From assembly GCA_902585045.1 (NCBI GenBank), contig CACICB010000003.1:1-64000 (forward strand): a stretch of DNA of 64,000 nucleotides, in the 5' to 3' direction. The stretch comes from an uncultured Pelagibacteraceae bacterium (lineage in GTDB: Bacteria > Pseudomonadota > Alphaproteobacteria > Pelagibacterales > Pelagibacteraceae). The translations under genes and the position numbers were made by a program. Positions 46,580 through 63,976 of this stretch are shown here, in pieces. Each line of letters opens with the position of its first letter. The stretch's first letter is position 1. Below the pieces are notes generated by a model that was given only the letters and a program-made list of their open reading frames with translations, had not been told where the DNA came from and ran no database searches.

Positions 46580-47041
46580 ATGTTTTTATCAAGTTACGAA
46601 AACAAAATAGACAAGAAAGGTCGGGTTTCAGTGCCAGCAACCTTTAGATCTTATTTAAGCACGATGGGATATAATGGTTTTGTAAGCTATCCGTCATTCA
46701 ATCATCCCGCTTTAGAAGCTTGCTCACAAGATAGAATTGAAAAATTATCTAACTCAATAGACTCTTTAAATCCTTTTGAGGAAAAAAGGGATTATTTTGC
46801 AACTTCAGTTTTATCTGAAAGTGAGAATCATCAATTTGATACGGAAGGCAGAATTTCACTGTCAGCAAAACTTTTAAATCATGCAAAAATTAAAAATAAT
46901 GTATTATTCGTTGGACTTGGTAAATCGTTTCAAATTTGGGAACCAAAAAATTTCGAGAAATTTAAATCATTTGCAAGAAAAAAAGCTTTTCAAAATAGAT
47001 CTAACTTAAAATGGGAAAATAAACAGAAAGGGGAGCTGTAA
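46580..47041 (+). CDS. mraZ: MraZ, transcriptional regulator of the dcw cluster
   Basis: MraZ is a DNA-binding protein of the AbrB/SpoVT fold that represses its own dcw operon. The 153-residue protein holds two half domains: MFLSSYENKIDKKGRVSVPA followed by TFR (residues 1-23), and the second DTEGRISLSAKLL near residue 90. The C-terminal NFEKFKSFARKKAF region is basic. The start fits the family. Its stop overlaps the ftsZ start by one base (TAATG), so MraZ and FtsZ are made from one message. A probable operator lies upstream. Confidence 0.94.
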   Translation: MFLSSYENKIDKKGRVSVPATFRSYLSTMGYNGFVSYPSFNHPALEACSQDRIEKLSNSIDSLNPFEEKRDYFATSVLSESENHQFDTEGRISLSAKLLNHAKIKNNVLFVGLGKSFQIWEPKNFEKFKSFARKKAFQNRSNLKWENKQKGEL

Positions 47042-48546
47042 TGACTATAAATGTTGGAGGCGGAGAACTTAGAGAACTTAAACCTAGAATCTTAGTAATT
47101 GGTGTTGGTGGAGCTGGGGGAAATGCAATCAATGCAATGATCGAAGCTGGTATGGAAGGCGTGGAATTTGTTGCAGTAAATACTGACGCACAAGATCTAA
47201 AAATGAGCAAAGCACACGCAAAAATTCAAATCGGAATGAATCTAACCAAAGGACTTGGTGCAGGAGCAAAACATGATATCGGGCAAGCTGCAGCCGATGA
47301 GTCAATTAATGAAATTGTTAACTATATTCAAGGAAGTAACATGGTTTTTATTGCATCTGGTATGGGAGGCGGAACTGGCACAGGTGCTTCACACGTTATA
47401 GCACGAGCAGCTAGAGAAATGAATATTTTAACCGTTGGAGTTACTACCTTACCTTTTTCTTATGAGGGACCAAAAAGAATGAGAAGAGCGATCACTGGCT
47501 TGGAGGAACTTAAGAGACACTTGGATACTGCGATTGTAGTACCAAATCAAAACCTATTTAAAATTGCTAATGAGACCACAGGTTTTGAGGAGTCGTTTAG
47601 TTTATCCAATGATGTTTTAAAACACGGCGTTCAAAGTATAACTGATCTAATGGTAAGACCAGGAATGATTAATCTCGATTTTGCTGATGTTGAAACAGTG
47701 ATGAGTTCTAGCGGTAAAGCAATGATGGGTACTGGAGAAGCAGAAGGAGAAAATAGAGCAATGGCTGCAACCGAGTTAGCTTTAAATAATCCTTTAATTG
47801 ATGAATATACATTACAAGGTGCAAAAGGTTTACTTGTAAATATTACTGGCGGCAGTGATATCAAACTTTTTGAAGTTGATGCTGCAGTGAATAAAATTAG
47901 AGCAGAAGTTGATCCTGAGTCCGAGTTAATTTTTGGCGCTATAAAAGATGAAAATATGAACGGTAAAATTAGGGTTTCAATAGTAGCAACATCTTTGAAA
48001 GGGTCCTCTATATCTCCTGAACCAAAACCAGTATTGAATGTTGTAAGCGGGTCAAATGGGAGAAATAATAATTTTTCTGATAATTTATTTTCAAAAAGCA
48101 ATATCGAACAGAATATTGTTAACTCTATTGACGGAGCAACAGCCTTAAAACTTGATGAAGGTTATGAAATTAGAAATAGCGAAGACCAAAACGCGCTCAT
48201 CAACAGATTTGAGAATGATGAAGAAGATAAAATCAAAACGGAGGCTCTTTTAAACCAAAGCAATGTCGATGATATTCCAAATGGGGTATCAATTGAAAGT
48301 GCATCTTATATGGAAAATTATCAAGAAACTAAAGATGATAGCTCTACCCTTCAAAATGACGATCAATTTTTAGAAAACCATCAAGAGGAATATACCCCAA
48401 AACTTTTTTCAGATGATCAATCACAAGAAAACCAAGATCAGAGAGATGACAAAGAAGAAATCAGATCTGAACAGCTATTCGAACAAGACTCAAGCGAAGA
48501 CGAGGATTTTGAAATTCCTGCATTCTTAAGAAGACAAAAGTTTTAA
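47041..48546 (+). CDS. ftsZ: Cell division protein FtsZ
   Basis: Tubulin-like GTPase that forms the division ring. The 501-residue protein has the GTP-binding start PRILVIGVGGAGGNAINAMI, the tubulin signature GGGTGTG (109-115), VTTLPFSYEGPKR, and the T7 loop NLDFADVETVMSS. A linker of about 150 residues rich in Asp, Glu, Asn and Gln leads to the C-terminal peptide FEIPAFLRRQKF, the alphaproteobacterial form that binds partners such as FtsA. It sits second in the cluster rather than after ftsA. Whether another ftsZ follows ftsA beyond the window cannot be seen. Confidence 0.97.
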   Translation: MTINVGGGELRELKPRILVIGVGGAGGNAINAMIEAGMEGVEFVAVNTDAQDLKMSKAHAKIQIGMNLTKGLGAGAKHDIGQAAADESINEIVNYIQGSNMVFIASGMGGGTGTGASHVIARAAREMNILTVGVTTLPFSYEGPKRMRRAITGLEELKRHLDTAIVVPNQNLFKIANETTGFEESFSLSNDVLKHGVQSITDLMVRPGMINLDFADVETVMSSSGKAMMGTGEAEGENRAMAATELALNNPLIDEYTLQGAKGLLVNITGGSDIKLFEVDAAVNKIRAEVDPESELIFGAIKDENMNGKIRVSIVATSLKGSSISPEPKPVLNVVSGSNGRNNNFSDNLFSKSNIEQNIVNSIDGATALKLDEGYEIRNSEDQNALINRFENDEEDKIKTEALLNQSNVDDIPNGVSIESASYMENYQETKDDSSTLQNDDQFLENHQEEYTPKLFSDDQSQENQDQRDDKEEIRSEQLFEQDSSEDEDFEIPAFLRRQKF

Positions 48547-49906: not shown

Positions 49907-51608
49907 AAATTTAAATCAAAATCAAACCAGTTTTTACTTTGAAGACTATTTTGAAACAAATAAAAAAAATAAACATTTCAAAGAAAATAATTTCTTTCAA
50001 GATAGATTGTATTTACTTTTTTTTTTATTTTTCTCATTAATATTAATTTTTAGTATACGTATCGTTCATGTATCTCTCTATAATATAGATCTGCACGATC
50101 AGAATAACGTTTCCAAAAAATTTGATTTACTTAGACGTGACATTGTTGATAGAAATGGAATTTTAGTATCAAGAAACGTTAAATCTTATCATGCGGCGGT
50201 CAACCCTAAACGAATAAAAAATAAGGAAAATTTTTTAATTAAGTTAAGGTTGAACTTCCCAGAACTAGCAATAAAAAAAATAGAAAAAAATCTTGATAAA
50301 GGAAAATATTTTTATTTAAAAAAACGTATTACTCAAATTGAGAAGGAAAAACTATGGTCACTAGGCGAAAAGGGAATAGTTTTTGAGCCTTTTCAATCAA
50401 GAATTTATACTCACGCAAACTTATTCAGTCATGTAATAGGACAAGTTGATTATGATAATTATGGAATTTCAGGAGTTGAAAGATATTTTGATAAAGAGTT
50501 AAAAAATAATAACTTAAAAAGTCAACCATTAGAGTTAACTTTAGATACAAATATTCAACATCTTATTAGCGAGGAATTAAATAAAGCTCTTGTAACTTTT
50601 AGTGCAACTGGTGGAGGTTCATTGTTAATGGATATAAATACCGGGGAAATTTTATCTTTAGTTTCACTTCCAAATTTTGACATTAACGTAAGAGCTGATT
50701 TAAAAGACAAAAAATATATTAATAAAATAACAAAAGGAGTATACGAGCTTGGTTCAATTTTTAAAACTTTTACAGTCGCGTTAGCCTTAGAAAACAATAT
50801 TGTCAGACCAAACACAATTATTCAAAATATCCCTAAGTCAATAAAATGTTCTAATCACAAAATCTCAGATATTAAAGAATTTCCAAAAGACTTATCTGTA
50901 GAGGATATATTGATAAGGTCCTCTAACATTGGAACTTTATTAATCGCAAGAAAAATAGGTGAAGAAAAGTTTAAGCAATTCATTCAAAATACAGAAATTC
51001 TAAAAAGTCCAGATTTACAATTAGAGGAGGTCGGAAATCCAATTAATTTTAAGTGGAATAAATGTAAATTAGAAACAGTTTCATTTGGTCATGGAATTAC
51101 TACAACTCCTTTACAAGCAGTTTTAGTATATGCATCTTTGGCTAACGGAGGTAGTATCATCAAACCTAGTTTAATTAAAAATACCAAAAACAATAAAATT
51201 AAAAGATTAGTTTCTGAAAAAACTAGTATTGAAATAGTAGATATCTTAAGAAAAGTAGTTACTGATAAAAATGGCACTGCTAGTTTAGCTGACGTAGATG
51301 GTTACTTTGTTGGAGGAAAAACAGGGACTTCACAAAATTATGATAATAAAAATGAGAACTTAAATACTTTCATATCTGTTTTTCCTTCACAAAAACCTAA
51401 ATATGCTTTGTTGGTTATGCTTGAAAATCCAAAAGTAGCTAAAGATCTCATTTATGACTACAGAGGCTTAAAAATAAAAGGAACTAGAAACGAGGCTGGT
51501 TGGAATTCTGTGTATGTTACCGGCAAAATTATAGAGAAAATTGGACCAATTTTAGCCATAAAAAGCAAAGACTTTAACAATCATTATGTTGCTGAAAGCA
51601 TTAATTAA
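49881..51608 (+). CDS. ftsI: Septal peptidoglycan transpeptidase FtsI (PBP3)
   Basis: FtsI cross-links septal peptidoglycan with FtsW. The 575-residue protein has a cytoplasmic Asn/Lys-rich tail, one membrane helix (about 43-62), a pedestal domain starting LLRRDIVDRNGILVSRNV, and a transpeptidase domain. Active-site motifs are S292-IFK295, SSN (347-349) and KTG (480-482) in VGGKTGTSQN. The start overlaps ftsL and the end overlaps murEF by 23 nt. Confidence 0.96.
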   Translation: MKKKYKKNRNLNQNQTSFYFEDYFETNKKNKHFKENNFFQDRLYLLFFLFFSLILIFSIRIVHVSLYNIDLHDQNNVSKKFDLLRRDIVDRNGILVSRNVKSYHAAVNPKRIKNKENFLIKLRLNFPELAIKKIEKNLDKGKYFYLKKRITQIEKEKLWSLGEKGIVFEPFQSRIYTHANLFSHVIGQVDYDNYGISGVERYFDKELKNNNLKSQPLELTLDTNIQHLISEELNKALVTFSATGGGSLLMDINTGEILSLVSLPNFDINVRADLKDKKYINKITKGVYELGSIFKTFTVALALENNIVRPNTIIQNIPKSIKCSNHKISDIKEFPKDLSVEDILIRSSNIGTLLIARKIGEEKFKQFIQNTEILKSPDLQLEEVGNPINFKWNKCKLETVSFGHGITTTPLQAVLVYASLANGGSIIKPSLIKNTKNNKIKRLVSEKTSIEIVDILRKVVTDKNGTASLADVDGYFVGGKTGTSQNYDNKNENLNTFISVFPSQKPKYALLVMLENPKVAKDLIYDYRGLKIKGTRNEAGWNSVYVTGKIIEKIGPILAIKSKDFNNHYVAESIN

Positions 51609-54342
51609 AAACTTACCAAAAGAAAAAAAAAGAATTAAAATTAGAGGTCTAGCGATTAATAGTAAAAAAGTGAAAAAAGATTACATTTTTTTTGCTATTA
51701 AAGGCAATCAATTAAATGGTGAAAAATTCATTAATGAGGCGATTAATAAAGGTGCATCTGTAATAATCTGTTCAAAAAAATGTAAATTTAGTAACAAATC
51801 TATTTTAGTTTTAAAAACATCTAATATCAGATATTTGTTGAGTGAGATTTCCTCAAAATACTATAAATTAAAGCCAAAAAACATCATTGCAATTACTGGA
51901 ACAAATGGAAAAACTTCTGTTGCAGATTTGTTTTATCAGATACTTGCACTTAATAAAATTCCTGTTGCATCAATTGGAACATTAGGTATTAAACACAAAG
52001 GCAAATTGATTAAATCTAACTTAACTTCACCTGATACAATATTGCTTCACAAATTTCTTGAGTATATTAAAAGAAAAAAAATAGATAATGTAATTATTGA
52101 AGCTTCAAGTCATGGCTTACAGCAAAAAAGAATTGATCACTTAAATTTAATGGCTGGTATTTTTACGAATTTTAGCCAGGATCACTTAGATTTTCATAAA
52201 ACAATGAAATCATATTTTGATGCAAAAATGCATCTTTTTAAAAATATAATTAATCCAAAAAAAACAATAATCGTAGATAAATCTATTAAAGAATTTTCAA
52301 TTTTAAAAAGAATTTCTAAAGCTAGATCATTACGATTAATTGATATTCATAAAACTAAAGTAAAATTAGATGAAATAGTTGGGGATCAATATAATGATTT
52401 TCAAAAAAAAAATATTTCTATGGCTGTTGAAGCAGCTAAACTATGTAATATTGAAGAAAGCAAAATTTTCAAATCATTAAAAAAAATAAAAGATATAAAT
52501 GGAAGATTAGAGCTTGTAAAAACTTTCTCTAACAATGTCCAAGTTTTCGTAGATTTTGCACACACGCCTGATGCATTATTAAAATCTATAAAGGCGTTAA
52601 AAAATTCTTATAATTCTGATTTATCATTAGTTTTCGGATGTGGAGGGGATCGAGATTTCAAAAAAAGACCTTTAATGGCAAGAATAGCAAATAAGCATTG
52701 CAAAAATGTTTATGTTACTGATGATAATCCGAGAAATGAAAAACCAGAAAAAATTAGAAGAGAAATTATAAGAAATATTGATAATAATTGTTTTAATATT
52801 GCAAATAGAGCAAAAGCTATAAAAATGGCAATAAAGAATGCAGAAACAAACGAATTGATATTAGTTGCAGGAAAAGGTCATGAAGATCAACAAATTTACA
52901 AAAATAAGATTATTCATATTTCTGATAAAGAGATTATTAGAAATTTAAAATTAAATAGAAAAAAGTTATCAAATCCAAGTATCAACTTTGAGCAAAATAA
53001 AGAAATAATTAAAAAATTTAAAAAAAAATCTATAAAGAATTTTCATGGTTTATCAATTGATACTAGAACATTAAAAAAAAATAATATTTTCCTAACAATA
53101 AAAGGAAAGAACAATGATGGAGTTAAATTTGTATCTGAAGCTTTAAAAAAGGGAGCAAAGTATATTGTTTCTTCTAGTAATATAAAAAAAAATAAAAGTA
53201 AAATTATTAAAGTTGATAATGAAGTCAGATTTTTAAATTATTATGCATCACAAAAAAGAGATAAATCCAGAGCGAATATTATTGCTATTACAGGAAGCGC
53301 AGGAAAGACATCTCTAAAAAATTTGATAAAAGATCAATTAGATAGTTTTGGGAAAACTTTTTGTTCACCAAAGTCATTTAATAACTATTTAGGAGTTCCT
53401 TTAAGTTTATCAGAATTAAATACAAATCATCAATTTGGTGTTTTTGAAGTAGGAATGAGTAAAAAAGGTGAAATTCATTCACTTTCAAAACTAATCAAAC
53501 CACACATAGGTATTATTACAAATATTGGAGAAGCACATATTGAAAATTTCAAAAATCTCAACGGAATAGCACAAGCTAAAGGAGAGATAATTAATAATAT
53601 AAAAAAAAATGGTATTTTGATTTTAAATCGTGATGATAAGTATTATAATTTTTTCAAAAAAAAGGCAGGACTAAAAAAATTAAGAGTTTTCTCTTTTGGT
53701 ATTAATAAAAAATCCGATGTTTATCCAATCAATTTCAAAAGAATTAAAAAACAAAAAGATATTACTTTGAAAATATTTGATCAAATTTTGAGATTAAAAA
53801 TTAAAAACATGAATTTACATAATATTCTTGCAACATTAACTTTATTAAAGGTTTTGAACCTCAATTTCTTTAAAACAGCTCATCGATTTATGAATTTTCA
53901 ACCATCTGAAGGAAGAGGAAAAATTTATGATGTCAAGAGATACAAAAAAAAATTTAAATTAATCGACGAAAGCTATAACGCAAATCCTTTATCAGTTAAA
54001 AATGCAATAAGGAACTTTAATTCTATAAAAAAAGAAAAATTTAAAAAATATTTGCTACTAGGCGATATGCTTGAATTAGGCAATAAATCTGAGATGTTGC
54101 ACAAAAATTTGTCAAAAGTTATTAACAATTCAGATATAGATAAAGTGTTTATTAAAGGTGTAAATACTCTTACTACCTACAAAAATCTCGCTAAAGAAAA
54201 GCGTGGAAACATTTTTCAAAGAGAGGAAGATATAGATTTTACTTTAAATAACATTATAGCTAATAATGATTACTTAATGATTAAAGGATCTAATGCTACT
54301 GGTTTAAATAATTTTAGTAAAAAAATTATAAAAGGTTATTAA
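51586..54342 (+). CDS. murE-murF: Fused MurE-MurF ligase (two-domain protein)
   Basis: One 918-residue chain holding two Mur ligases in series. Residues about 1-455 are MurE: P-loop GTNGKT (105-110), ASSHGLQQKRID, DFAHTPDALLK, GCGGDRDFKKRPLM and the meso-diaminopimelate motif DNPR (380-383). Residues about 470-918 are MurF: LSIDTRTLKKNNIFLTIKG, P-loop GSAGKT (570-575), FNNYLGVPLSL, VGMSKKGEIHSLSKLIKPH and DESYNANPLS. The chain should add meso-DAP and then D-Ala-D-Ala to the UDP-MurNAc peptide. No stop or frameshift separates the halves. The MurE central domain looks about 25-30 residues shorter than in E. coli. Confidence 0.95.
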   Translation: MLLKALIKNLPKEKKRIKIRGLAINSKKVKKDYIFFAIKGNQLNGEKFINEAINKGASVIICSKKCKFSNKSILVLKTSNIRYLLSEISSKYYKLKPKNIIAITGTNGKTSVADLFYQILALNKIPVASIGTLGIKHKGKLIKSNLTSPDTILLHKFLEYIKRKKIDNVIIEASSHGLQQKRIDHLNLMAGIFTNFSQDHLDFHKTMKSYFDAKMHLFKNIINPKKTIIVDKSIKEFSILKRISKARSLRLIDIHKTKVKLDEIVGDQYNDFQKKNISMAVEAAKLCNIEESKIFKSLKKIKDINGRLELVKTFSNNVQVFVDFAHTPDALLKSIKALKNSYNSDLSLVFGCGGDRDFKKRPLMARIANKHCKNVYVTDDNPRNEKPEKIRREIIRNIDNNCFNIANRAKAIKMAIKNAETNELILVAGKGHEDQQIYKNKIIHISDKEIIRNLKLNRKKLSNPSINFEQNKEIIKKFKKKSIKNFHGLSIDTRTLKKNNIFLTIKGKNNDGVKFVSEALKKGAKYIVSSSNIKKNKSKIIKVDNEVRFLNYYASQKRDKSRANIIAITGSAGKTSLKNLIKDQLDSFGKTFCSPKSFNNYLGVPLSLSELNTNHQFGVFEVGMSKKGEIHSLSKLIKPHIGIITNIGEAHIENFKNLNGIAQAKGEIINNIKKNGILILNRDDKYYNFFKKKAGLKKLRVFSFGINKKSDVYPINFKRIKKQKDITLKIFDQILRLKIKNMNLHNILATLTLLKVLNLNFFKTAHRFMNFQPSEGRGKIYDVKRYKKKFKLIDESYNANPLSVKNAIRNFNSIKKEKFKKYLLLGDMLELGNKSEMLHKNLSKVINNSDIDKVFIKGVNTLTTYKNLAKEKRGNIFQREEDIDFTLNNIIANNDYLMIKGSNATGLNNFSKKIIKGY

Positions 54343-61192: not shown

Positions 61193-62123
61193 AAAAAAAT
61201 TTAAAAATGTACTAGTCGTTGTTGGTGGAGATTCCGGCGAAAGAGAAATTAGTTTAAAAAGTGGAAAAGCATGTGTTAAGGCACTCCAAAAAAAAAATTA
61301 TAATGTTTCTACACTTGATCCAAAATTCAAAAATCTGAACTTAATTAATAAATTGAAAACAGATGTGATCTTCAATGCATTACATGGCAAAGGTGGAGAG
61401 GATGGCGTTGCTCAAAGTTATTTTGAGTATTTGAAGATACCTTATACTCACTCAGGTGTTGTAAGCTCTTATAATTCAATGAATAAAATCATTTCAAAAG
61501 AACTTTTCATTAAAAATAAAATTTTAACTCCAAAATATTTCACCTTAACAAAAAATGACTTCAATAATAGGAATCTTAAAAAGCTTATTATGAAAAAAAA
61601 AATATATTTCCCTATAGTTATCAAACCAATAAATGAAGGCTCAAGTTTAGGCGTGAGAATTGTTAAAAATTTCAAGGATTTGTATGAATCTTCAAAACTA
61701 TTATTTAGAAAATATAATCAATTATTATTTGAAAATTTTATTGGAGGACAGGAGATACAAGTCGCAGTGATTAATAATAACGCGTTGGGTGCAATTGAAC
61801 TTGTCCCGAAAAGATCATTTTATGATTATAAAGCTAAATATACTAAAGCAGCAAAAACAAAACACATTATGCCAGCAAGACTTAATCAAAAAAAATATTC
61901 TCTAATTTTAAAATTAGCAAAAAGAGCTCATAAATCTTTAGGCTGTAGAGGCGTTACAAGAACTGATTTCAAATTTTATAAAAACAAATTCTATCTTTTA
62001 GAATTAAATACGCAGCCAGGAATGACAAGTCTTTCTTTAGTTCCAGAAATAGCAAGTCATTCCGGAATAATTTTTGAAGATTTGGTAGAAAAGATTTTAT
62101 TGGATGCAAGTATAAATCGATGA
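61185..62123 (+). CDS. ddl: D-alanine-D-alanine ligase
   Basis: Ddl makes the D-Ala-D-Ala dipeptide that the MurF half of the fusion uses. The ATP-grasp protein of about 312 residues shows VVVGGDSGEREISLKSGKA, NALHGKGGEDGVAQSYF, PIVIKPINEGSSLGVRIV, GQEIQVAVI, the omega-loop Tyr in SFYDYKAKYT, and LLELNTQPGMTSLSLVPEIA. No ATG is available near the start; GTG at 61185 or TTG at 61182 must be used, both inside the end of murB. It overlaps ftsQ by 4 nt. Confidence 0.95.
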   Translation: MIKKKFKNVLVVVGGDSGEREISLKSGKACVKALQKKNYNVSTLDPKFKNLNLINKLKTDVIFNALHGKGGEDGVAQSYFEYLKIPYTHSGVVSSYNSMNKIISKELFIKNKILTPKYFTLTKNDFNNRNLKKLIMKKKIYFPIVIKPINEGSSLGVRIVKNFKDLYESSKLLFRKYNQLLFENFIGGQEIQVAVINNNALGAIELVPKRSFYDYKAKYTKAAKTKHIMPARLNQKKYSLILKLAKRAHKSLGCRGVTRTDFKFYKNKFYLLELNTQPGMTSLSLVPEIASHSGIIFEDLVEKILLDASINR

Positions 62124-62779
62124 AAAAAAGATTTTTATTTGCTTTAGTACTTTTATTACTACTAAGCACATATAACGTCCAAAAAAAAATAAATTTAAAC
62201 TCTAGATTAAATATAGAAACAATTTACGTTGAAAATAATAAATTTACTGATGAGACAATATTAAAAAAAAAACTTTCATTTTTGTACGAAACAAATCTTT
62301 TTTTACTTAACGAAAAAGACATTAAAATTAAATTAAAAGAAATAGATATGATTGAGAGTTTTGAAGTAAAAAAAATTTTTCCAAATAAGATAAAAATAAA
62401 AATTTATGAAAATATTCCTATCGCAATAATTCAAAACAAAGTAGAAAGAAAATTTTATACCACTAACGATAAAGCAATCAACTTTATTGAATTAAAGGAA
62501 TTTAGTAATTTACCTATTGTATATGGAGATCATAAAAGTTTTAAAAAATTTTATAAAGTGTTGAAAAAAATTAATTATCCCTTAAATGAAATAAAGAAAT
62601 TTTATTTATTTGAATCTAATAGATGGGATATTGTTACAAAAGAGAATCAAACAATTAAACTGCCAATTAAAAACTACGAGACAAGTTTGCAGAATTTTAT
62701 CAATTTAAAAGACCAGATTAATTTTAGTAAATATAAAACTTTTGATTATAGAATTAATGATCAAATTATTCTAAAATGA
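62120..62779 (+). CDS. ftsQ: Cell division protein FtsQ (short form)
   Basis: FtsQ is a bitopic divisome protein that recruits FtsB and FtsL. The 219-residue protein has almost no cytoplasmic tail (MKKR) before its membrane helix (about 5-18), then a POTRA domain (IETIYVENNKFTDETILKKK through VKKIFPNKIKIKIYENIPIA) and the beta domain (GDHKSFKKFYKVLKKI; ESNRWDIVTKENQTIKLP). Typical FtsQ is longer because of a larger N-terminal cytoplasmic part. Position between ddl and ftsA supports the call. ftsA starts 3 bp later. Confidence 0.9.
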   Translation: MKKRFLFALVLLLLLSTYNVQKKINLNSRLNIETIYVENNKFTDETILKKKLSFLYETNLFLLNEKDIKIKLKEIDMIESFEVKKIFPNKIKIKIYENIPIAIIQNKVERKFYTTNDKAINFIELKEFSNLPIVYGDHKSFKKFYKVLKKINYPLNEIKKFYLFESNRWDIVTKENQTIKLPIKNYETSLQNFINLKDQINFSKYKTFDYRINDQIILK

Positions 62780-62782
62780 TTT

Positions 62783-63976
62783 ATGGAAACAAATTCTCTC
62801 AATTTATTCATAGAAATAAATAATTTAGAATTTGTTTTTGTTGTAGTTGAAAGTAATGACAATAATTATTCAAAAATTATTTTTAAACAAAAAATTCCAA
62901 TCCAAGGTATTAAAGAAGAAAAAATTTTTGATTACGACTCGATACTAAACACTTTTAAAGAAAAGATAAATTCATTAGAAAAAAAATTAAATTTTTTTTT
63001 TAAAGATGTTGTTCTAATCATTGATAATTTTGATTGTTCTTTAATAAGTTTTTCAGGTTTCAAAAACCTAAATGGATCTCAACTCATGAAAGAAAACATT
63101 ACCTACATTTTAAATTCTTTAAAATTAAAAATAAATGAAGTAGAAAATAAAAAAACTATTTTACATATTTTTAACACAAGATTTATTCTTGATAATAAAG
63201 AAATGATTAATTTACCGATTGGCTTATTTGGAAATTCTTACTGTCATGAATTATCTTTTTTTTTAATAAATAATAATGACTATCAAAATCTAAAAAAAAT
63301 TTTGAGTGAGTGTAATTTGAAAATTAAAAAAATTATTTCAAAAAATTTTATTGAAGGAGCTTCTCTTATCAAGTCAAATTCTAATCTTAATAACTTATTC
63401 AAAATTGAAATAAGTGAAGAAGTATCAAAACTCATATTTATAGAAAACTCCTCTTTAAAATTTACTCAAGAATTTAAATTCGGTTCAAATCTAATTATAC
63501 ATGATATTTCAAAAATAACAGGATTAAAAATAGATATTATAAAAGATATTTTAAGCAATTCAGATTTTTCGAAAAACAAATTAGAAGATTTAGTTGAAGA
63601 AAATTTTTTTAAAAATAACAATTATCGTAAAATAAGAAAAAAATTAATATCAGAAATTGCTAGAGCTAGAATTGAAGAACTTTCAGAAATTATTCTACTC
63701 AAAAATATTAATATGAAATATTTCTTAGAAAAAAAACCTACAATTTTTTTAAATTTAAAAGATATTTTAATTGATCAAAAGTTTATTAACTCTTTTAAAT
63801 TATCTTTTTCAAAGAATGACAATTTTGATTTGAGAATTATAGAAAATAATGTCTTAGATAGTTTTTATAATAACGCTAATGAAATAGTTCAATTTGGGTG
63901 GAAAAAAGAAGCTGTGCCTATTACCTTAGAAAAAAAGTCAATATTAGCAAGATTATTTAGTTTCATATTTGATTAA
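62783..63976 (+). CDS. ftsA: Highly divergent FtsA lacking recognisable ATP-binding motifs
   Basis: A 397-residue protein in the ftsA position. Landmarks align with FtsA: NGSQLMKENITYILNSL and ILHIFNTRFILDNKEMINLP (subdomain 1C), YQNLKKILSECNLKIKKII, FKFGSNLIIHDISKITGLKI (about 231-250), and SEIARARIEELSEIIL (290-305). The C-terminal amphipathic helix KKSILARLFSFIFD is kept. The phosphate-1 loop is replaced by FIEINNLEFVF (9-19), phosphate-2 DIGGGTT by EISEEVS (209-215), and the adenosine loop by IFLNLKDILI (321-330). The frame is intact over full length, so this is not a decaying pseudogene. It probably anchors FtsZ to the membrane without binding ATP. Confidence 0.85.
   Translation: METNSLNLFIEINNLEFVFVVVESNDNNYSKIIFKQKIPIQGIKEEKIFDYDSILNTFKEKINSLEKKLNFFFKDVVLIIDNFDCSLISFSGFKNLNGSQLMKENITYILNSLKLKINEVENKKTILHIFNTRFILDNKEMINLPIGLFGNSYCHELSFFLINNNDYQNLKKILSECNLKIKKIISKNFIEGASLIKSNSNLNNLFKIEISEEVSKLIFIENSSLKFTQEFKFGSNLIIHDISKITGLKIDIIKDILSNSDFSKNKLEDLVEENFFKNNNYRKIRKKLISEIARARIEELSEIILLKNINMKYFLEKKPTIFLNLKDILIDQKFINSFKLSFSKNDNFDLRIIENNVLDSFYNNANEIVQFGWKKEAVPITLEKKSILARLFSFIFD

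Follow-up and report, generated by a model that had tools for sequence, protein, structure and literature searches.

The window, a stretch of 64,000 nucleotides from an uncultured Pelagibacteraceae bacterium, encodes an FtsA that has kept its fold and lost the canonical nucleotide-binding loops. FtsA is a relative of actin and is normally an ATP-run cell-division protein. We consider it likely that this protein, the sole FtsA found in what we take to be a SAR11 clade II bacterium, serves the division machine as a membrane adaptor that needs no ATP. On balance, we also favour a wider reading in which SAR11 dismantled the FtsA actin motor at least twice: in clade II the ATP pocket would have been erased with the fold retained, and in a second genus, g6, the second lobe would have been deleted together with the FtsZ site. 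FtsZ rings would then start without an ATP-switched FtsA, and a minimal FtsA made of subdomain 1A, subdomain 1C and the membrane helix would represent the irreducible FtsA job.

Gene, family assignment and predicted fold

The gene is a single open reading frame encoding 397 aa, with an ATG start and no internal stop (Table 1). It begins 3 bases downstream of the end of ftsQ, and lpxC follows on the genome contig, outside the window, giving the order ftsQ-ftsA-lpxC. The protein aligned with the NCBIfam ftsA profile TIGR01174 at 98.1 bits (E 5e-28), short of the cut-off of 175.85, and with Pfam SHS2_FTSA over the stretch 94-151 at 23.6 bits, slightly under the cut-off of 25.4. The profile search proposed by an earlier, sequence-only reading of this DNA therefore retrieved FtsA family matches, all of them under cut-off. 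In the set of 79 orthologues from the same genus, TIGR01174 matched every protein (E <=0.001); at E 0.01, 59 of them matched SHS2_FTSA and 12 matched the Pfam FtsA domain. FtsA chains were also the top phmmer matches of the window protein among PDB sequences (E 6e-9).

Table 1. Coordinates of the window features discussed in the text (residues refer to the protein encoded by ftsA)
Feature	Residues	Window positions	Strand	Basis
ftsZ		47041..48546	+	Tubulin 162.2 bits, FtsZ_C 112.1 bits; beside mraZ, upstream
Conserved C-terminal FtsZ peptide, FEIPAFLRRQ		48508..48537	+	End of ftsZ
ftsQ		62120..62779	+	POTRA_1 45.2 bits, FtsQ_DivIB_C 33.3 bits, both above cut-off
ftsA orthologue, 397 aa, nucleotide loops lost		62783..63976	+	Open reading frame, TIGR01174 match, predicted structure
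Phosphate-1 place, EINNLEF	11-17	62813..62833	+	Hairpin between strands 5-12 and 16-24; D+G in 0/79
1C (SHS2), most conserved subdomain	85-163	63035..63271	+	Mean column entropy 1.05 bits
Second actin lobe (2A+2B), absent from g6 half-FtsA	~200-355	63380..63847	+	Alignment and predicted structure
Phosphate-2 place, EISEEVS	209-215	63407..63427	+	Between strands 205-210 and 215-221; D+G in 1/79
2B helix with R296 and E299	280-303	63620..63691	+	R296 and E299 in 79/79
Adenosine-loop place, LNLKDILI	323-330	63749..63772	+	End of strand 320-325 into helix 328-342
GWKKEAVP motif	372-379	63896..63919	+	G372, W373, E376, A377, P379 in 79/79
C-terminal amphipathic (membrane) helix	386-397	63938..63973	+	Predicted helix 387-396; F392 in 79/79

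AlphaFold2, given the 79 aligned orthologues, predicted a complete FtsA fold (pLDDT 87.4, pTM 0.83); this is one predicted structure, built from close relatives. Its 19 best Foldseek matches were all FtsA, and the closest structure by VIA-align was Thermotoga maritima FtsA 1e4g (Z 21.6, 349 residues aligned, rmsd 6.2). Both comparisons point to an FtsA fold, in which 1C stands where actin has 1B, and the structural overlay on T. maritima FtsA suggested earlier thus finds the fold intact. Against canonical FtsA (T. maritima 1e4g and 4a2a, Escherichia coli 7q6d, Vibrio maritimus 7q6f and 7q6i) the Z scores ranged from 20 to 22. The window protein shares with these proteins the 1C fold, the adjacency to ftsQ, the C-terminal amphipathic helix and the 2B arginine, but it lacks the phosphate-1, phosphate-2 and adenosine glycines, and identity in the structural alignments is 13-16%. 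PilM, which has a related actin-like fold, was the next-best match (3jc8, Z 17.5; 2ych, Z 17.2). PilM identity was rejected, as the profile TIGR01175 scored 14.4 bits against a cut-off of 133; the gene context of PilM also differs from that of the window ftsA. By position and predicted fold, the window protein is an FtsA orthologue.

Source genome and relatives

The source genome, 86.5% complete, has a total of 918,826 bases on 29 contigs; the assemblies examined are single-cell and metagenome assemblies, and fragmented. Scanning named genome contigs with a 21-row genus alignment gave 92 relatives, of which 80 were kept, all labelled Pelagibacteraceae, Pelagibacterales or Candidatus Pelagibacter. 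They include HIMB058, which is placed in SAR11 clade II in an excerpt of PMC6234284. Taking this one strain as the guide, the genus of the window (g1) would correspond to SAR11 clade II. The genus g6 appears to be the one that holds HTCC1062 and HTCC7211, while g5 and g8 would represent the HIMB114 and IMCC9063 lineages (IIIa) and g7 the LD12 lineage.

Loss of the canonical nucleotide loops

Pocket loss was judged from sequence in 79 rows, at loop places that we assigned from secondary structure and from the FtsA domain layout. At the phosphate-1 place, D11 occurs in one row and G13 in two, never together. At the phosphate-2 place, D209 is found in three rows and G211 in 13, with both in a single row. 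Neither GG nor GxG occurs anywhere within residues 301-345, which cover the adenosine loop (0/79). The canonical phosphate-1, phosphate-2 and adenosine motifs of an ATP-binding FtsA are consequently absent from the window protein, which would not be expected to bind ATP. The alignment of orthologues bears out the sequence-only reading that this FtsA has lost its ATP motifs, since the loops are missing throughout the genus as sampled. That reading had the loops devoid of glycines and of acidic residues alike; the former holds, but phosphate 1 retains an acidic residue, with E in place of D at position 11 in 69/79.

The loss is not general to SAR11. In a mixed alignment, all nine rows of g5, g7, g8 and g10 keep [DE]-[IL]-G, D-[FL]-G-x-[DE]-K-T and [TSN]-G-x-G-S. 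The FtsA of these genera resembles that of the window in the ftsQ-ftsA-lpxC order, the bacterial order and a similar length (400-411 aa), but differs in its retained loop motifs and in mostly passing or nearing the family cut-off (169-232 bits in the rows listed). The sister family f2 (nine rows) takes an intermediate position, four long-form g6 rows keep part of the motifs, and the two g9 and 12 g1 rows shown lack the full motifs.

FtsA above the cut-off was found in 12 of 297 genomes of the order versus 208 of 240 in a class-wide sample; other genomes of the latter also fall under the cut-off, so SAR11 is not the sole group with a diverged FtsA. TIGR01174 matched 294 of the 297 genomes, a figure that is not a count of FtsA, as many matches are weak, span profile positions 176-346 only and lie in frames of ~350 aa. 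These weak matches are probably other actin-like proteins. No relative was found on viral contigs.

A normal second ftsA elsewhere in the genome would have spoken against the sequence-only reading. Within the source assembly (86.5% complete), the window protein matched itself alone, and none of the three TIGR01174 matches rose above the cut-off, the best being the window ftsA. Nor was an ftsA above the family cut-off detected in any of 29 genomes of the genus, 14 of which are at least 90% complete.

Conserved parts and selection

Conservation and dN/dS were computed on 77 of the 79 rows (L120 and L179 were left out, as their codons did not match). Mean column entropy was 0.51 bits at residues 371-379, 1.05 in 1C and 1.77 across 2B, whose helix 280-303 had 1.26. 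The adenosine-side half of 2A, at 2.59 bits, is the fastest-drifting part of the protein. The overall value for 2B indicates just moderate conservation, which is a point against our main reading.

FtsZ binding by FtsA runs through 2B. R296 of the window protein, present in 79/79, aligns with R300 of Vibrio FtsA in the PDB match and, by residue count, also with R300 of E. coli FtsA, presumably the residue that contacts FtsZ. The FtsA structure 4a2a is a complex with an FtsZ peptide. The window protein is a putative FtsZ binder.

The C-terminus carries a predicted membrane helix, in line with the earlier claim that this amphipathic helix is intact. The best 11-mer of the last 13 residues has a mean hydrophobic moment of 0.69 (lowest 0.56), whereas internal stretches drawn at random average 0.36, with a 95th percentile of 0.61; when the C-terminal residues are shuffled, 5% of the shuffles attain the observed value. 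Just upstream of this helix, GWxxEAxP is invariant in the genus (79/79); in half-FtsA, a similar NEV motif precedes the helix.

An open ftsA of 376-401 aa is present in 78 of the 80 named relatives, and the other two run off a contig end. NG86 dN/dS was 0.10-0.34 over 24 pairs with more than 68% identity, indicating purifying selection. The window gene compared with its two nearest relatives gave 0.10 and 0.11, but with dS at 1.3-1.4 these two values may be affected by saturation. The description of this FtsA as conserved and full-length is upheld by these lengths and by the dN/dS comparison that had been suggested across orthologues.

A shortened FtsA in genus g6

Many g6 genomes carry a short gene in the slot that ftsA occupies elsewhere, with ftsQ on one side and lpxC on the other. 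A model built from nine short proteins matched 107 of 151 g6 genomes and gave no match in the remaining 44. Of the matched frames, 56 were short and complete (220-246 codons), 36 were long (370-402 codons), eight of these with a second, separate model piece in the same frame, and 15 were cut, partial or broken. Among the nine short proteins, six matched TIGR01174 at E <=0.1 (best 9.5e-8) and five matched SHS2_FTSA (best 0.016). Half-FtsA shares with the window FtsA the slot between ftsQ and lpxC, 1A including its last helix, 1C and the membrane helix, but the whole 2A+2B lobe is absent, seen as an alignment gap from ~193 to ~355 of the window protein.

A search with model A4 detected no second lobe elsewhere in 14 half-FtsA genomes (one of them, G053, with a broken gene), whereas it found the lobe in all four long-form g6 genomes and in G041. 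As the model failed to pick up even the diverged lobe in the source genome of the window, a separate copy of the lobe may still exist if it has diverged strongly. The half-FtsA frame is broken by stops at G053:C1:193799-194455 (L090), in a single-contig genome, and at G654:C18. The dN/dS set held 39 half-FtsA rows, two of which (L088 and L206) are one gene. The 20 most similar usable pairs gave 0.12-0.29; over all usable pairs (599 of 741) the median was 0.46 and the highest value 1.23, figures that saturation and misalignment may inflate and that also allow weaker constraint.

History of the losses

A tree of 48 rows was built from the neighbouring LpxC, Ddl and FtsQ, with states taken from FtsA; several of its deep forks are weak. 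A single clade of half forms was rejected (p-AU 0.0014), as was a single clade uniting pocket-less and half forms (p-AU 5e-5), while a single clade of the pocket-less g1 and g9 was not rejected (p-AU 0.46). The topologies were picked after the first tree, which makes these p values optimistic. The best reading is that the pocket and the lobe were lost in separate events, with the second lobe probably lost more than once.

FtsZ and other division proteins

As lpxC follows ftsA, a loss of ftsZ had to be considered; it was ruled out by the ftsZ found upstream in the window. The gene lies ~14 kb upstream of ftsA, beside mraZ (46580-48546), and is not a neighbour of ftsA (ftsQ and ftsA occupy 62120-63976). 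All 26 FtsZ proteins read end in [LF]EIP[AS]FLRRQ: 16 from g6, two each from g5 and g8, one from g7, four from f2 and that of the window. Twelve of the 16 g6 proteins come from half-FtsA genomes, one with a broken gene. Across the order, 180 of 197 genomes gave an FtsZ match.

Among 20 SAR11 genomes searched, neither SepF nor ZipA was found (0/20 each). FtsE above its equivalog cut-off was likewise detected in none of the 20, all of which gave ABC-type matches, and a SPOR domain was present in just six. The FtsE and SPOR counts make the SAR11 division machine look reduced beyond FtsA.

Proposed mechanism and alternatives

The retention of 1C, the 2B helix, the membrane helix and the FtsZ peptide alongside the loss of the loops is most simply read as a constitutive adaptor without an ATP switch. 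The C-terminal helix would hold the window FtsA on the membrane, 2B may still take the FtsZ C-terminal peptide in clade II, and 1C would contact later division proteins. ATP-driven switching of FtsA polymers would no longer be involved, and division in the window's group probably starts without an ATP-driven FtsA. According to PMC5508204 and PMC11323482, FtsA tethers FtsZ and, through 1C, recruits late division proteins and binds FtsN. According to the review PMC5832921, most substitutions that inactivate E. coli FtsA lie in the ATP site, and Streptococcus pneumoniae FtsA requires ATP binding for membrane attachment and polymerisation. A passage in one of the former two sources points in the opposite direction, describing E. 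coli FtsA minirings that formed without added ATP, which was attributed to ATP in the preparation.

It is hardly credible that the window ftsA is a decaying gene or an assembly artefact. The assemblies are fragmented and two g6 genomes (G053 and G654) have broken half-FtsA frames, but the open frames of the relatives, with only the two contig-end cases apart, and dN/dS of 0.10-0.34 rule this out, and the predicted fold is coherent. The cleft might instead have been rebuilt, binding a nucleotide or another small ligand so that FtsA still cycles. Non-canonical residues are conserved at the old loops (E11 in 69/79, N13 in 60/79, S215 in 62/79, D327 in 55/79) and could serve such a site within the predicted two-lobed fold. 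Nevertheless, we regard a rebuilt pocket as unlikely: no glycine pair is left for adenosine or phosphates (0/79 within residues 301-345), the adenosine half of 2A changes faster than any other part, and strand ends and contacts between the lobes can account for the conserved residues.

The role of FtsZ bears on how far the adaptor reading should go. The window FtsA could have ceased to meet FtsZ altogether, serving as a 1C-based anchor for later division proteins while an unrecognised protein holds FtsZ. This would suit the high conservation of 1C and the C-terminus, and also g6, where half-FtsA without 2B is common and the FtsZ peptide is kept. It is improbable for the window's genus, however, where the 2B helix carries the invariant R296 and E299, and SepF and ZipA were not found in the 20 genomes. 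For g6 itself, the lack of the known FtsZ site implies that either a different face of FtsA or a different protein holds FtsZ. An ATP-independent adaptor that includes 2B remains our preferred reading for the window FtsA. The sequence-only reading had described the protein as a pure FtsZ tether, a label that captures only part of the picture, given that no subdomain is more conserved than 1C and that g6 relatives delete the very lobe with the known FtsZ site. Since that deletion leaves 1A, 1C and the membrane helix, what SAR11 seems unable to spare is membrane-anchored 1C and not the actin motor.

SAR11 are very abundant ocean bacteria. If a free-living lineage indeed divides with a pocket-less FtsA and has half-FtsA relatives, the ATP cycle would be dispensable and both forms would mark membrane-anchored 1C as the central function. 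Among the matches listed in a literature search that covered sources other than supplements, preprints and most subscription papers, none described a SAR11 or Pelagibacter FtsA of this sort. SAR11 offers a graded natural series, with motifs kept, motifs lost or the lobe deleted, in which the dependence of each division partner on each part of FtsA can be tested.

Elsewhere in the window, a 918-aa open reading frame (51586-54342) contains two full sets of Mur ligase domains, as in a fusion of the murE-murF type.
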